64,000 bases of DNA from Faecalibacterium sp. An121 (lineage in GTDB: Bacteria > Bacillota > Clostridia > Oscillospirales > Ruminococcaceae), in assembly GCF_002160915.1 (NCBI RefSeq), contig NZ_NFLM01000006.1, forward strand, positions 62,001 through 126,000, written 5' to 3'. The notes beneath the pieces were generated by a model that did not search any database, had not been told where the DNA came from, and worked only from the letters and a program-made list of their open reading frames with translations. Shown here one piece after another: positions 4,524-8,867 of the stretch. The position numbers and the translations under genes are program-made. Position 1 is the stretch's first letter. Each line of letters opens with the position of its first letter.

Positions 4524-5528
4524 TCACTTCTTCTCGTCCAGAAGCACCACGCCCTCGGGCGGGTTTGCGTTGATGGCCCCTACGATGGGGTGCGGGACGT
4601 AGCACTCCTCCAGATAGGCCACTTCCTCTGCGGTCAGGTGCACGTCCAGCGCGCCGGCGGCATCGTCCAGATAGCGGGTCTTGGTGGCCCCGATGATGGG
4701 AGAAGCCACCCCTTTGGCCCACTGCCATGCAATGGCGATCTGGGACATCTTGCACCCCTTCTGCCGGGCCAGCTCATCCACCCGCTGAACGATCCGGATA
4801 TCCTGCTGCTCCATCCGGTCATATTTGCCCATGGCTACCCGGTCGGTCCGGGCCCGCAGGGTGTCGGCCTCCCAGGTGGGGCGGGTCAGATGGCCGGCGG
4901 CCAGCGGGCTGTAAGGCATCAGCGTCACTCCCATCTGCCTGCAAATGGGGATCAGCTCCCGCTCATCCTCTCGGTACAGCAGGTTGTAGTGGTTCTCCAT
5001 GGCCGAGAAGGGGGTCCAGCCGTGGTCCCGGGCGGCCAGCTGCATATTGTAGAACTGATAGCCGTACATGGCCGACGCGCCCAGCGCCCGCACCTTGCCG
5101 GCCCGGACCAGATCGTGCAGGGCCTCCATGGTCTCCTCGATGGGGGTATCGTAATCAAAGCGGTGGATGATGTACAGATCCAGATAGTCGGTGCCCAGCC
5201 GCCGCAGGCTGCCGTCGATCTCCCGCATGATGGCCTCCCGGGAAAGGCGGCCGGGGTTGAAATAGACCTTGGATGCGATCACCACCTTGTCCCGCGGGAC
5301 ATTGCGCTTGAGGGCGCGGCCCAGGTACTCCTCGCTGGTGCCCTCCGAATAGCCGTTGGCGGTGTCAAAAAAGTTGATGCCCAGATCCAAAGCGTGCCGG
5401 ATGACCTGCTCGCTGGCGTCCTCATCCAGCGTCCAGTCGTGCATGGTGCCAGCCTTGCCAAAGCTCATGCAGCCCACACACAGCTTGGAAATGGTGATGT
5501 CGGTGCTGCCCAGTTTTGTGTATTCCAT
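4524..5528 (-). CDS. Aldo/keto reductase
   Basis: Encodes a 334-residue NADPH-dependent aldo/keto reductase of the YajO/Tas-like group. The catalytic tetrad can be read: Asp and Tyr in FFDTANGYSEG, Lys in VIASKVYF and His in LYIIHRFD. The C-terminal cofactor segment SPIIGATKTRYLDDAAGAL is typical. The physiological carbonyl substrate is unknown. The start ATG follows AGAGGAGCAAGACG. It is the last gene of a set with the FMN reductase (5870-6406) and CMD-family gene (5554-5808), read from a promoter with a LysR-type site at 6445-6515. Confidence 0.9.
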   Translation of the reverse strand: MEYTKLGSTDITISKLCVGCMSFGKAGTMHDWTLDEDASEQVIRHALDLGINFFDTANGYSEGTSEEYLGRALKRNVPRDKVVIASKVYFNPGRLSREAIMREIDGSLRRLGTDYLDLYIIHRFDYDTPIEETMEALHDLVRAGKVRALGASAMYGYQFYNMQLAARDHGWTPFSAMENHYNLLYREDERELIPICRQMGVTLMPYSPLAAGHLTRPTWEADTLRARTDRVAMGKYDRMEQQDIRIVQRVDELARQKGCKMSQIAIAWQWAKGVASPIIGATKTRYLDDAAGALDVHLTAEEVAYLEECYVPHPIVGAINANPPEGVVLLDEKK

Positions 5529-5553: not shown

Positions 5554-5808
5554 TTACTCTACCGCCTTGTTGATGCAGGTGATGGCGTTCAGGCTGCGGG
5601 GATACCCGATATAGGGCAGGCACTGAGACACCACCCGCACCAGGAACGCCTTATAAGCATCCAGTCCCTGGCAGCCCACCAGCGCCGCTAGGATTGCCAG
5701 CCAGCGGGTGGGTGCATCCAGCTGCTGGCCCTCCTCTGCGGGCACTTCCTCAAAAGCAAACCGTTCGGCCCGCTCCATAAACGCGAGGTCTGTCTTTCGA
5801 TAGTCCAT
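5554..5808 (-). CDS. Carboxymuconolactone decarboxylase-family protein
   Basis: Encodes 84 residues resembling the carboxymuconolactone decarboxylase (CMD/AhpD-like) fold. The conserved C-terminal half has ILAALVGCQGLDAYKAFL and CLPYIGYPRSLNAI. Related proteins are decarboxylases or thiol peroxidase-like enzymes, but the AhpD CxxC pair is absent (single Cys in VGCQG and SQC). It is shorter than usual (about 110-130). The ATG at 5808 has AAAGGAGG eight bases upstream, so the ten extra residues readable before it are probably not translated. It lies between the FMN reductase and aldo/keto reductase genes and is likely cotranscribed. Confidence 0.75.
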   Translation of the reverse strand: MDYRKTDLAFMERAERFAFEEVPAEEGQQLDAPTRWLAILAALVGCQGLDAYKAFLVRVVSQCLPYIGYPRSLNAITCINKAVE

Positions 5809-5869
5809 CGTCCGATCCTCCTTTGTAAGATCTTCCAAGCTGAAAAATGGCGGCAGGCTGCGCGCCGCC

Positions 5870-6444: not shown

Positions 6445-6515
6445 ATTATAGGGCGGCGGCCGTGCAATGTCCAATACCTATCTTTTATCGCGATCCATAC
6501 GCCTGCCACATAATT
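6445..6515 (-). promoter_or_regulatory. LysR-type promoter/operator 1 (FMN reductase operon)
   Basis: The minus strand has TTGGAC (6469-6474) and TATAAT (6445-6450) with an 18-nt spacer. A 23-bp dyad-like site at 6493-6515 is separated from the -35 by 18 nt. The same arrangement occurs at two other promoters nearby. The site has one strong half (CGTATGGAT) and one weak half (AATTATGTG). Confidence 0.75.
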
Positions 6516-6521
6516 CAGCGC

Positions 6522-6552
6522 ATAAAAGTCCCCCGAACGTTCGTCCGGGGGC
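6522..6552 (-). terminator. Terminator of the lysR gene
   Basis: On the minus strand CCCCCGGACG and CGTTCGGGGG form a GC-rich stem followed by ACTTTTAT. It lies 6-36 nt beyond the lysR stop and separates lysR from promoter 1. Confidence 0.8.
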
Positions 6553-6557
6553 AATGT

Positions 6558-7439
6558 TTATTCCAGCGCAGCCCGCAGCATATTGACCTCCTGGATGAAC
6601 AGCGAGGACGCCGGGGAGAACAGGCGGTCCTTCTTCCATACCAGGACGCTGATGCGTTCGGGCGAGATGGGGATAAAGCGCAGCTGCGGGCTGCTGTGGA
6701 TGGCCAGGGCGCCGTCCAGGCAGAAAGCGCAGCCCAGCCCAGCCTCTACCAGCAGCACCGCGTTGGACAGCAGCGTATAGCTCAGCGGGATGCTCAGGTC
6801 TTTTTCGTCGCATTGCAGCCAGTTGAGGATCTCGGCCCGCACCGGCTCCCGCAGAGGCAGGATCAGAGGGTAAGCGGCGGCCTCTGGCGGACGGATGACC
6901 TGGCTGCCGGCCAGGGGATGGTCGGCCCGCATCAGTACGCCCCAGGTCTCCTTCTGCGGCAGGCGGACAAAATCGTATTTGGCGGTGTCCACCGGCTCCA
7001 GCAGCAGGCCGATATCGATCAGACCCTTGTCCATCCGCTCCTTGATGTAATCGGCCATCTCGTTGTACAGAACGAAGCGGACCTGGGGGTACTTGTCCGA
7101 AAACTCCTTGATGATCCTGGCCAGCAGGCGGCTGCCCACCGCCTCGGTGGCCCCGATGGAAACCACCCCGCTCACCTCTGCATTGCGCCGGGCAAAGGAA
7201 CGCTCCAGCCGGTCGGCCAGCTCTACGATCTCCTCGGCCCTCTGGCGGAAAAAGCGGCCCTCATCCGTCAGGGTCATCCCCTTTTTGCCCCGTGTCATCA
7301 GGGTGGCCCCCAGCTCCCGCTCCAGGTCCATCAGCTGGCGGCTCAGGGTGGGCTGGGTCACGTGCAGCAGGTCAGCGGCCCGGGTGATATTCTCCTCGTT
7401 GGCCGCCGCCAAAAAATAGCGCAGAGTGCGCAGTTCCAT
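6558..7439 (-). CDS. LysR-family transcriptional regulator of the redox island
   Basis: Encodes 293 residues, standard for LysR regulators. The N-terminal helix-turn-helix is ELRTLRYFLAAANEENITRA with LLHVTQPTLSRQLMDLE (residues 2-50). A linker helix and a periplasmic-binding-like effector domain follow (SIGATEAVGSRLLARII, IDIGLLLEPV, HPLAG). The start ATG has AAGGAGG upstream. Four copies of a related 23-bp site lie within 2.3 kb: one before this gene (7496-7518) and three at the same distance from neighbouring promoters. The simplest reading is that it controls all the redox genes from 4.5 to 10.7 kb and itself. The ligand is unknown. Confidence 0.93.
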   Translation of the reverse strand: MELRTLRYFLAAANEENITRAADLLHVTQPTLSRQLMDLERELGATLMTRGKKGMTLTDEGRFFRQRAEEIVELADRLERSFARRNAEVSGVVSIGATEAVGSRLLARIIKEFSDKYPQVRFVLYNEMADYIKERMDKGLIDIGLLLEPVDTAKYDFVRLPQKETWGVLMRADHPLAGSQVIRPPEAAAYPLILPLREPVRAEILNWLQCDEKDLSIPLSYTLLSNAVLLVEAGLGCAFCLDGALAIHSSPQLRFIPISPERISVLVWKKDRLFSPASSLFIQEVNMLRAALE

Positions 7440-7495
7440 CCAGCCATCCTCCTTGTTGCCATTTGATCCGGGGCATATCCTAACGCCCGGATGTG

Positions 7496-7518
7496 TTCCA
7501 TGCTATGCTCCCATGGTA
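7496..7518 (-). promoter_or_regulatory. LysR-type site upstream of lysR
   Basis: TTCCATGCT on the left and CCATGGTA on the right match the dyad seen at the three promoter-linked sites. It lies 57 nt before the lysR start and suits autoregulation. No convincing -10/-35 pair was found next to it. A separate inverted repeat (ATCCGGGG/CCCGGAT, 7466-7492) lies between the site and the start codon. Confidence 0.5.
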
Positions 7519-7567
7519 GCACAACCGGCCCCGGAACGCAACAGGTCCATGACTTCCCAGCGCTGTT

Positions 7568-8071
7568 TTATTCCCCCGCCGCGGCCAGCCAGACTGCCAG
7601 TTTCGCAGCCAGGGCGTCCGGGCCGGCGGTATCCAGCACCCCCAGAGCCTCGGTCACCTGCGCCCCCGGGCACAGACGCTGCACTTCCTGGCGCATGGAG
7701 CAGGGCACCCCGCCGCAGTGGGAATAAAAGGGCAGGATCTTTTTGCCCGCCCAGTCGTGCTGGCTCAGCCAGGAGGCCATGGGCGGTGCGATGGCGCCGC
7801 ACCAGTTGGGAGAACCCACACAGACGGCGGTATAGCCCTGCGGGGACGGGGCCCCCGGCAGCAGGCTGGGACGGCGGCCGGCATGGATCTCCGCCTTGAC
7901 CTGCCGCAGCAGCGCCGGAAAAGCCATGGGATAGGGCTGCCAGGGATAGATCTCCCTCCACTCCCCTCCTGTGAGCTGCTGCAGCGCCCGGGCCACCCGG
8001 CGGGTGTGCCCTGTATAGGAATAGGAGACGATCAGCAGCCCGGGCTCCGTCGGGCCGTGCCGGGCGGTCAT
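7568..8071 (-). CDS. Flavodoxin-like protein
   Basis: Encodes 167 residues of flavodoxin fold. The FMN phosphate loop is VSYSYTGHTRRVA near the N-terminus. GSPNWCGAIAPPMASWL and ILPFYSHCGGVP match the two flavin-contacting loops of the flavodoxin_4 type. The start is the ATG at 8071, which overlaps the stop of the flavin reductase gene as ATGA, so the two are translationally coupled. The small gap to lysR holds no terminator. It could carry electrons to a partner or reduce small molecules with the flavin reductase. Confidence 0.85.
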   Translation of the reverse strand: MTARHGPTEPGLLIVSYSYTGHTRRVARALQQLTGGEWREIYPWQPYPMAFPALLRQVKAEIHAGRRPSLLPGAPSPQGYTAVCVGSPNWCGAIAPPMASWLSQHDWAGKKILPFYSHCGGVPCSMRQEVQRLCPGAQVTEALGVLDTAGPDALAAKLAVWLAAAGE

Positions 8072-8625
8072 CCCTGCGCCAGATCCTTGCCAAAGGACAT
8101 ACATTTGCCCAGTACATCCCCGGTCCTGAGATACTGATAGGTGGGCATTTCAAACAGCACCGGCTTGAGGATGCTGTAATCCAGCCTGCCCTCCTGGTCC
8201 AGCACAGCCTCGTCGGCATAGGTGGCGTCGATGGTGCAGATGATGTTGTCAAAGCCGGGCGTATCGTAGAAATCCGCCGCAGTGCAGGCCATCACCACCG
8301 GGGCGTCGGAGATCATGGGGACGCCGCCGTCGCTCATCTCCCAGCGGAACAGGCCGGACTTGTCCTCCCGGCTGCCGCTGACACAGCCCGCATGGTCCGC
8401 CCTGGGCAGCAGCGCCTCGTCCACAATATTGATCGAGAGCTTGCCGGTGGCCCGGATGCCCTGGTTGGTGTAGTGGGTCTTGGCCAGACTGACCATCACA
8501 TGGTCATGGCCCATGATGCCCAGATGCCCTACAAGCAGCCAGTTGGGTTTGCCCTCCACCATAGCGCCCACCACCACCAGCGGGGTGGGATACAGGGCCA
8601 ATGCGTTTCCGATCTTCTTTTTCAT
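8068..8625 (-). CDS. Flavin reductase-like FMN-binding protein
   Basis: Encodes 185 residues of the flavin reductase-like split-barrel family. Visible family features are LYPTPLVVVGAMVEGKPN at residues 9-26, HVMVSLAKTHYTNQGI, KLSINIVDEAL and the end segment YLRTGDVLGKCMSFGKDL. It should bind FMN and reduce flavin or a small substrate with NAD(P)H. The ATG at 8625 is preceded by AAGGAGGTATACACC. The longer in-frame reading runs back through promoter 2 and is rejected. First gene of an operon with the flavodoxin at 7568-8071. Confidence 0.87.
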   Translation of the reverse strand: MKKKIGNALALYPTPLVVVGAMVEGKPNWLLVGHLGIMGHDHVMVSLAKTHYTNQGIRATGKLSINIVDEALLPRADHAGCVSGSREDKSGLFRWEMSDGGVPMISDAPVVMACTAADFYDTPGFDNIICTIDATYADEAVLDQEGRLDYSILKPVLFEMPTYQYLRTGDVLGKCMSFGKDLAQG

Positions 8626-8670
8626 GGTGTATACCTCCTTGGAATGTCTTTCAATGGTCCCTCTGTCCGT

Positions 8671-8741
8671 AGTATAGGGCAGAGAATGAGGTATGTCCAA
8701 TGCTTCTATTTCATCGAGATCCATACGCCTGGCGCATGGAT
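8671..8741 (-). promoter_or_regulatory. LysR-type promoter/operator 2 (flavin reductase operon)
   Basis: The minus strand has TTGGAC (8695-8700), an 18-nt spacer and TATACT (8671-8676). The 23-bp site at 8719-8741 is an almost perfect palindrome (ATCCATACGCC, T, GGCGCATGGAT) and ends 18 nt from the -35. It is the best copy of the site in the window. Confidence 0.8.
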
Positions 8742-8796
8742 CGGCGAAAACGTCCGGCGGGGCCTGTCCGTCTGATTTGTGTCCATCCTGTGACAT

Positions 8797-8867
8797 TTCC
8801 ATGCTTTACGCGCATGAATCACTATAACAACCAAGTATTGGACAAACGTCCCCTTTTGCTTTATGAT
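8797..8867 (+). promoter_or_regulatory. LysR-type promoter/operator 3 (exported flavodoxin operon)
   Basis: The plus strand has a 23-bp site at 8797-8819 (TTCCATGCT, GCGCATGAAT), an 18-nt gap, TTGGAC (8838-8843), an 18-nt spacer and TATGAT (8862-8867). The geometry is identical to promoters 1 and 2. It diverges from promoter 2, the two sites being 55 nt apart. Confidence 0.78.

Follow-up and report, generated by a model that had tools for sequence, protein, structure and literature searches.

What controls a compact set of redox genes whose three promoters appear to be built to one plan? This question is raised by a stretch of DNA from the gut bacterium Faecalibacterium sp. An121, here called the window, which comprises 64,000 nucleotides of contig NZ_NFLM01000006.1 (G000:C56:62001-126000) in a 2.71-Mb draft genome. 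The initial annotation described three promoters (P1, P2, and P3), each with a 23-bp dyad, 18 nt, TTGGAC, 18 nt, and TATxxT, and assigned them to one regulon of a LysR-type transcriptional regulator (LTTR). All of these elements are present and in register (Table 1). It is very likely that a single LysR-type regulator (6558-7439) activates the three promoters of one layout, much as BenM and CatM do. The assignment to one regulon is upheld by conservation of the layout beside orthologous lysR genes, by co-occurrence of site and regulator in 197 genomes, and by an operator that the genome contains nowhere outside this cluster. The regulator appears to belong to a widespread, uncharacterised LysR subfamily with an ordinary, known LysR mechanism. 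What this analysis adds is the breadth of the regulon's distribution, a second site, a defective -35, and the frequent placement of lysR in tandem with its target.

Promoter architecture

Classical LTTR-activated promoters have a T-N11-A dyad centred near -65 and a second site near -35. Site 1 of the window promoters is of the type ATCCATAC-N7-GYATGGAT and is centred at approximately -66 by our own arithmetic from the predicted start, with the -10 counted as ending at -7, in agreement with the ~65 nt first proposed. The 18-nt gap as originally drawn hides a predicted second site, so that the arrangement is the two-site one described for BenM. Site 2, of the type GATAAAAGATAGGTAT, is a second T-N11-A site abutting the -35 and is centred at about -43 on the same arithmetic. 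Its AT-N11-AT occupies alignment positions 24-38, 23 bp downstream of site 1. Among the aligned promoters of the window and its relatives, AT-N11-AT is found in 43/43 at site 1 and 43/43 at site 2, so both sites of the classical promoter are present throughout, at positions relative to a predicted start. The site 1 dyad of P2 is nearly perfect, as first noted, with 10/11 arm pairs. By our own count P1 has 5/11 and P3 6/11, with the half-sites still in register; given this poor pairing, the term dyad suits the consensus better than the single sites.

The hexamer TTGGAC is present as described, but its reading as a -35 with an 18-nt spacer is replaced by that of a sigma-70 scan, which favours TGGACA one base later with a 17-nt spacer. 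Across the alignment the best reading of the -35 is T[A/G/C]GACA, again followed by a spacer of 17 nt: TAGACA occurs in 28/43 promoters and TTGACA in 0/43, and the -10 is TATAAT in 36/43. TAGACA was likewise read at 28 of 59 family sites. A good core with a near-constant -35 defect fits an activator-dependent promoter. By analogy with the LysR family, a tetramer would sit on site 1, inducer binding would bring it onto site 2, and there it would help RNA polymerase to use the defective -35. Between them, the three operons encode an FMN reductase, an aldo/keto reductase (AKR), a flavin reductase, a flavodoxin, two proteins with twin-arginine (Tat) signals (a flavodoxin and a DUF362 protein), and a small protein resembling carboxymuconolactone decarboxylase (CMD).

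Uniqueness of the operator in its own genome

The operator pattern YATGN6GCGYATGRATC has exactly three matches without mismatch in the whole genome, namely P1, P2, and P3, and the sole match with one mismatch is P2 on the opposite strand. The exact fit is by construction, because the pattern was drawn from these three sites; what matters is the absence of any other fit in the genome. The composite pattern YATGN6GCGYATGRATC-N17-TTGGAC-N18-TATNNT, also derived from the three promoters, fits each of them with no mismatch. The core on its own (TTGGAC-N16-20-TANNNT) was rejected as evidence, with 28 genome matches versus 49 in a reversed control. Hence it is the operator that carries the signal.

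A model of 37 promoters, all of them from organisms outside the window's genus, ranks P1 (E 7.1e-12), P2 (6.0e-7), and P3 (4.4e-5) first to third in this genome, and the next match has an E of 0.10. As the training set was picked with the window's pattern, this test is independent in its letters and not in its choice.

Conservation beside LysR orthologues

One scan of a genome contig collection found 54 loci encoding a LysR relative, 43 of them at 72–82% identity (L079-L120, L127). Such loci occur in Lachnospiraceae, Oscillospiraceae, and other groups. Many records of the 72–82% orthologues bear poultry names in their titles.

The set searched for promoters consisted of the window, two genus relatives, and 51 loci. 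The composite pattern with up to 5 mismatches gives 29 matches in this set versus 0 in the reversed control. A looser pattern scan of early loci was abandoned, since at 3-4 mismatches it was swamped by chance matches. Scanning the same set with a block covering site 2 and the -35 yields 61 matches, compared with 2, 0, 2, 14, and 1 for column-permuted control blocks. A dyad of at least 10/16 accompanies 52/61 of these, all 52 at offset 0 in a ±8 search, and the other nine score lower. A good -10 follows in 56/61, at the same spacing in 52, one base longer in 3, and two bases shorter in 1. Because the block matrix was built from fixed-pattern matches, this count is biased in favour of the geometry.

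Alignment A1 holds 43 of the 61 block matches (left out were two of L093, L096, L100 minus, L101, L114, three of L121, L122, L123, three of L125, two of L128, and two of L129), and A2 holds 37 of those 43. The 43 promoters align without gaps over 78 columns, 15 of which are invariant. In a test on 38 anchors outside the training loci, all 14/14 good dyads lie at offset 0 and 36/37 -10 elements have the same spacing; this test is independent only in part, many of the loci having been retrieved with the site model R1. The 45 loci fetched for their LysR, by search or by place, contain 11 anchors. Five of these have a -10 of 5-6/6 at the exact place, four being GTATTAGAC (L039, L047, L172, L177) and one GTATTGGAC (L004); six have no -10 at that place, and only L172 has a dyad of at least 10, at offset 0. 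The -35/-10 core is therefore widely shared and the full operator is not. The initial annotation had staked the regulon on conservation of the dyad in orthologous promoters, and the layout is indeed kept beside orthologous LysR genes.

Co-occurrence and gene arrangement

Co-occurrence of pattern and lysR in related genomes had been proposed as a check, and the two do go together. In a survey of 197 family genomes, with a site defined as a match to R1 at E ≤ 1e-4 and the LysR subfamily at E ≤ 1e-45, both are present in 54, the site only in 4, the LysR only in 38, and neither in 101 (Fisher p 1.6e-18, by a test that ignores shared ancestry). Site counts may be low, as the R1 search used stricter filters and scored 24 candidates per genome. 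When the best site of each genome is taken, 26/29 lie within 1.5 kb of a lysR or of a gene family of the window, compared with 0/32 background loci of the own genome.

The regulator is typically, though not by definition, encoded divergently from its target in LTTR systems and autoregulated through the shared region. The window lysR is not divergent from a target, and tandem placement is commoner in its relatives. Outside the own genome there are 110 sites at E ≤ 1e-4, of which 63 are within 10 kb of a listed lysR; 30 of these 63 lie directly 3' of lysR on the same strand, versus 14 that are divergent, within 200 bp. The remainder comprises 45 sites with no listed lysR on the contig and 2 further off. 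Among close orthologues the site lies within 300 bp 3' of lysR in 27/34 loci with a site. In most of these, lysR appears to stand in tandem directly upstream of one such promoter, and in the window the same control is predicted to be spread over three.

Up to nine matches at E ≤ 0.1 occur in some relatives (G136:C80, G231:C24, G215, G219, and G179), several of them clustered on one contig; the regulon can therefore be larger than in the window. A quick LysR tree mixes rows from Lachnospiraceae, Oscillospiraceae, Butyricicoccaceae, and Erysipelotrichaceae. Support for this tree is low (4/37 inner branches starred), its rows are mostly metagenome bins, and it raises no more than a suspicion of horizontal spread of the LysR orthologues.

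The regulator and known systems

The window LysR is an LTTR by its domains, with PF00126 and PF03466 both over cut-offs. Its best match among solved structures is BenM, by sequence (2.6e-23) and by fold (1.3e-19, to full-length BenM). Foldseek matches include BenM, HinK, CbnR, and OxyR; on the predicted model these say LTTR and no more on the ligand. At benA of Acinetobacter baylyi, the first BenM site reads ATAC-N7-GTAT and the second overlaps the -35, with TTGAAC immediately downstream; effectors shift the BenM tetramer from occupancy of sites 1 and 3 to that of sites 1 and 2 (PMC6628147). The window promoters resemble those of BenM and CatM, LysR activators of benA and catB, in an ATAC-N7-GTAT-type site 1 with T-N11-A, in a second site that abuts or overlaps the -35 and, for benA, in an off-consensus -35 (PMC6628147). 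Unlike BenM and CatM, the targets here are redox genes rather than aromatic catabolism genes, and lysR is commonly in tandem with its target. The protein itself is also distant, with ~27% identity to BenM over the fold alignment and NCBIfam scores of 91.6 bits against a cut-off of 600 for BenM and 82.9 against 580 for CatM. The best full-length NCBIfam match is the CidR-type LysR, at 136.6 bits; this is far under the cut-off of 415, and the gene neighbours differ.

A second comparison is suggested by the YqhC-yqhD-dkgA system. One orthologous cluster has an iron-containing alcohol dehydrogenase (Fe-ADH) with 303 bits to PRK15138, which we take to be YqhD, and another has an AKR with 259.9 bits to DkgA, although both are under the curated cut-offs (645 and 425). 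The window cluster has neither gene, its AKR being nearer YdjG, and none of its 8 proteins scores over the cut-off of the YqhD or DkgA equivalogues. YqhC is, moreover, an AraC/XylS regulator, unlike the LysR-type regulator here. E. coli YqhC responds to glyoxal and furfural by activating yqhD and an AKR gene (PMC5297802). Literature searches, judged by titles and the openings of abstracts, found no paper on this LysR, in agreement with the earlier view that no named system has this gene set; the mechanism itself is the known LysR one.

Two cysteines of the LysR may be relevant to sensing. In close orthologues (43 rows, window included), C240 is present in 43/43 and C237 in 38/43, within GLGCAFC. 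Among 41 more distant relatives the counts are 14/41 and 9/41; the rows exclude tblastn pieces of <240 residues and those interrupted by a stop. A thiol sensor acting through C237/C240 is possible.

Candidate target genes and the putative signal

The genes that follow the top 60 of the 110 sites were examined. Fifty-four of these sites gave a first open reading frame (ORF), and 128/132 further co-directional ORFs were scanned against Pfam. The first genes include Flavodoxin_4 (17), MerR (8), cyclophilin-like 2 (6), AKR (4), CMD (3), and Fe-ADH (2) families. The further ORFs include AKR (19), Flavodoxin_4 (18), CMD (13), Cupin_2 (10), and FMN reductase (9), and more rarely Fe-ADH (4), ArsP-type permease (3), DUF362 (2), and flavin reductase (2). 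Unrelated single families, such as RhaA and MatE, also occur downstream of family sites. As the chains were called by a simple script, some members are perhaps not cotranscribed. The MerR genes in first place (8/54) hint at a LysR-to-MerR cascade.

This gene set, together with the activation of such enzymes by YqhC with glyoxal and furfural, suggests that the regulon may be a response to reactive carbonyls or similar electrophiles. NusG_II, Hpre_diP_synt_I, Fer4, and ApbE families were also seen downstream of a few sites. Genes of these types occur in extracellular electron-transfer loci, and such a link would fit the exported flavodoxins.

Genes and other features of the locus

Table 1. Promoters, genes, and other features of the window discussed in the text
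Feature	Position	Strand	Details
P1	6441-6518	-	site 1 dyad 6493-6515; site 2 6474-6488 (AT-N11-AT); -35 TGGACA 6473-6468 (initially TTGGAC 6474-6469); -10 TATAAT 6450-6445; predicted start ~6438; downstream FMN reductase, CMD-like ORF, AKR
P2	8667-8744	-	site 1 dyad 8719-8741; site 2 8700-8714; -35 TGGACA 8699-8694 (initially TTGGAC 8700-8695); -10 TATACT 8676-8671; predicted start ~8664; downstream flavin reductase, flavodoxin
P3	8794-8871	+	site 1 dyad 8797-8819; site 2 8824-8838; -35 TGGACA 8839-8844 (initially TTGGAC 8838-8843); -10 TATGAT 8862-8867; predicted start ~8874; downstream two Tat-signal genes
Fourth dyad of the initial annotation, before lysR	7496-7518	-	CCATG-N9-CATGG; 10/16 consensus positions
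AKR	4524-5528	-	PF00248 9.8e-75; best NCBIfam YdjG, 155.8 bits (cut-off 550)
94-aa ORF, CMD-like	5554-5838	-	matches two separate parts of CMD protein L125:485-1174
NADPH-dependent FMN reductase family, first gene of P1	5870-6406	-	PF03358 7.7e-24
Intrinsic-terminator-like hairpin between lysR and P1	6530-6551	-	9 pairs, 7 G-C, then ACTTTTATGC
lysR, 293 aa, presumed activator	6558-7439	-	PF00126 3.7e-21; PF03466 2.6e-29
Cytoplasmic flavodoxin	7568-8104	-	PF12682 6.1e-9; longest ORF, overlaps preceding gene
Flavin reductase-like protein, first gene of P2	8068-8625	-	PF01613 1.2e-14
Flavodoxin with twin-arginine signal MKRRDFLK, first gene of P3	8928-9596	+	PF12682 1.6e-35; signal by eye from translation
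DUF362 protein with near-identical twin-arginine signal, second gene of P3	9613-10713	+	PF04015 9.6e-45; signal by eye from translation

The dyad before lysR had been counted as a fourth LysR site, a claim that finds no support here. In the same region of 42 orthologues the best scores range from 8 to 14 of 16 at scattered places, with no dyad at a constant position before lysR, and the window's dyad therefore does not stand out. Its use as an autoregulatory site is possible but unsupported. P2 possibly reads lysR too, by readthrough.

The 94-aa ORF has no Pfam match of its own. Its middle seems to be missing, and it is perhaps a decayed or internally shortened copy of a CMD gene. Copies of the FMN reductase at 68–85% identity occur in many orthologous clusters. 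TatC is encoded in the own genome (1.3e-55). The two adjacent Tat-signal proteins belong to different families and have a near-identical Tat signal and Ser/Ala-rich stretch, which suggests that the export signal was copied or exchanged between them.

Alternative explanations

A first alternative keeps the regulon and changes the control: the regulator may act mainly as a repressor, or in a dual manner, at near-consensus promoters, or a paralogous LysR may also take part. This is unlikely. The strong core, with its -10 of TATAAT or near and its 17-nt spacer, would suit a repressor; however, the -35 deviates from TTGACA in 43/43 aligned promoters, which fits activation better. For a paralogue speaks the presence of two in the own genome, the 50% identical one (G000:C61:101020-101991; L138/L039) having a TTAGAC-N18-TACAAT core a short way downstream and an upstream dyad unlike that of the window. 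Lower-identity LysR relatives (L004, L039, L047, and L177 of the 45 loci) similarly have a GTATT[A/G]GACAT core with a well-placed -10 and a different upstream dyad, so that the core looks shared within the subfamily and the operator clade-specific. In the few cases seen, the dyads beside paralogues thus differ from those of the window, and within the genome the full operator pattern is confined to this cluster.

The likeness of the promoters could also stem from recent duplication of one intergenic region rather than from selection for one regulator. P1 and P2 have GGCGTATGGATC-N-CGAT-N-AAA in common, P3 being less similar, and the signal peptides of the two Tat genes are near-identical. This origin is nonetheless highly improbable, as the three promoters differ freely in the spacer columns from -35 to -10 while agreeing in those of operator and core, and promoters of other organisms preserve these same operator and core columns. 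Chance resemblance among promoters picked by eye, with no common regulator, would agree with a core that alone is no commoner than its control, but is scarcely credible and in our reading refuted by an operator found nowhere else in the genome, by the first three ranks from a model lacking the window promoters, by conservation across species, and by co-occurrence.

Activation of all three promoters by the one LysR remains the preferred explanation, against which several observations weigh. The dyads of P1 and P3 are weak palindromes, and 3/59 family sites have a perfect TTGACA. The promoters that trained the 37-promoter model came from loci chosen for a close lysR and were picked with a window-derived pattern, and the association in the survey includes whatever shared ancestry contributes. 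At E ≤ 1e-4 the site was not found in 38/92 LysR-bearing genomes. At E ≤ 0.1, a LysR of this subfamily is absent from 46/131 genomes that have a match, so that chance resemblances are among the weak R1 matches. Among the 40 close-orthologue loci examined (L048, L117, L118, L119, and L127 not among them), 6/40 show no site above threshold in the sequence retrieved. Of these, five (L084, L087, L094, L104, L105) also lack the window's other gene families in that sequence, and L104 has a degenerate version of the site just after lysR. The two paralogues in the own genome (50% and 43%) could bind similar sites, and one of them has the same -35/-10 core just downstream. The AlphaFold model of the regulator is modest (pLDDT 73.4, pTM 0.45), with the effector domain weakest, and the electrophile signal is drawn from gene content alone.

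Significance

The promoter signature is specific enough for regulon members to be recognised from sequence alone in Clostridia, where genetic tools are often scarce. It places a group of poorly understood proteins (Tat-signal flavodoxins, DUF362 proteins, AKRs, CMD, and cyclophilin-like proteins) under one type of switch, and their common inducer becomes a question that is testable by reporter assay. A broader proposal, which is tentative and rather doubtful at present, is that a large LysR subfamily of gut Clostridia senses reactive electrophiles via a conserved effector-domain Cys-x-x-Cys (C237 and C240) and drives reductive detoxification operons, including exported cofactor-loaded flavodoxins, with paralogues that share a promoter core and keep separate operators as parallel, insulated stress switches. 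The shared core with differing operators beside paralogues offers a natural test bed for LysR insulation.

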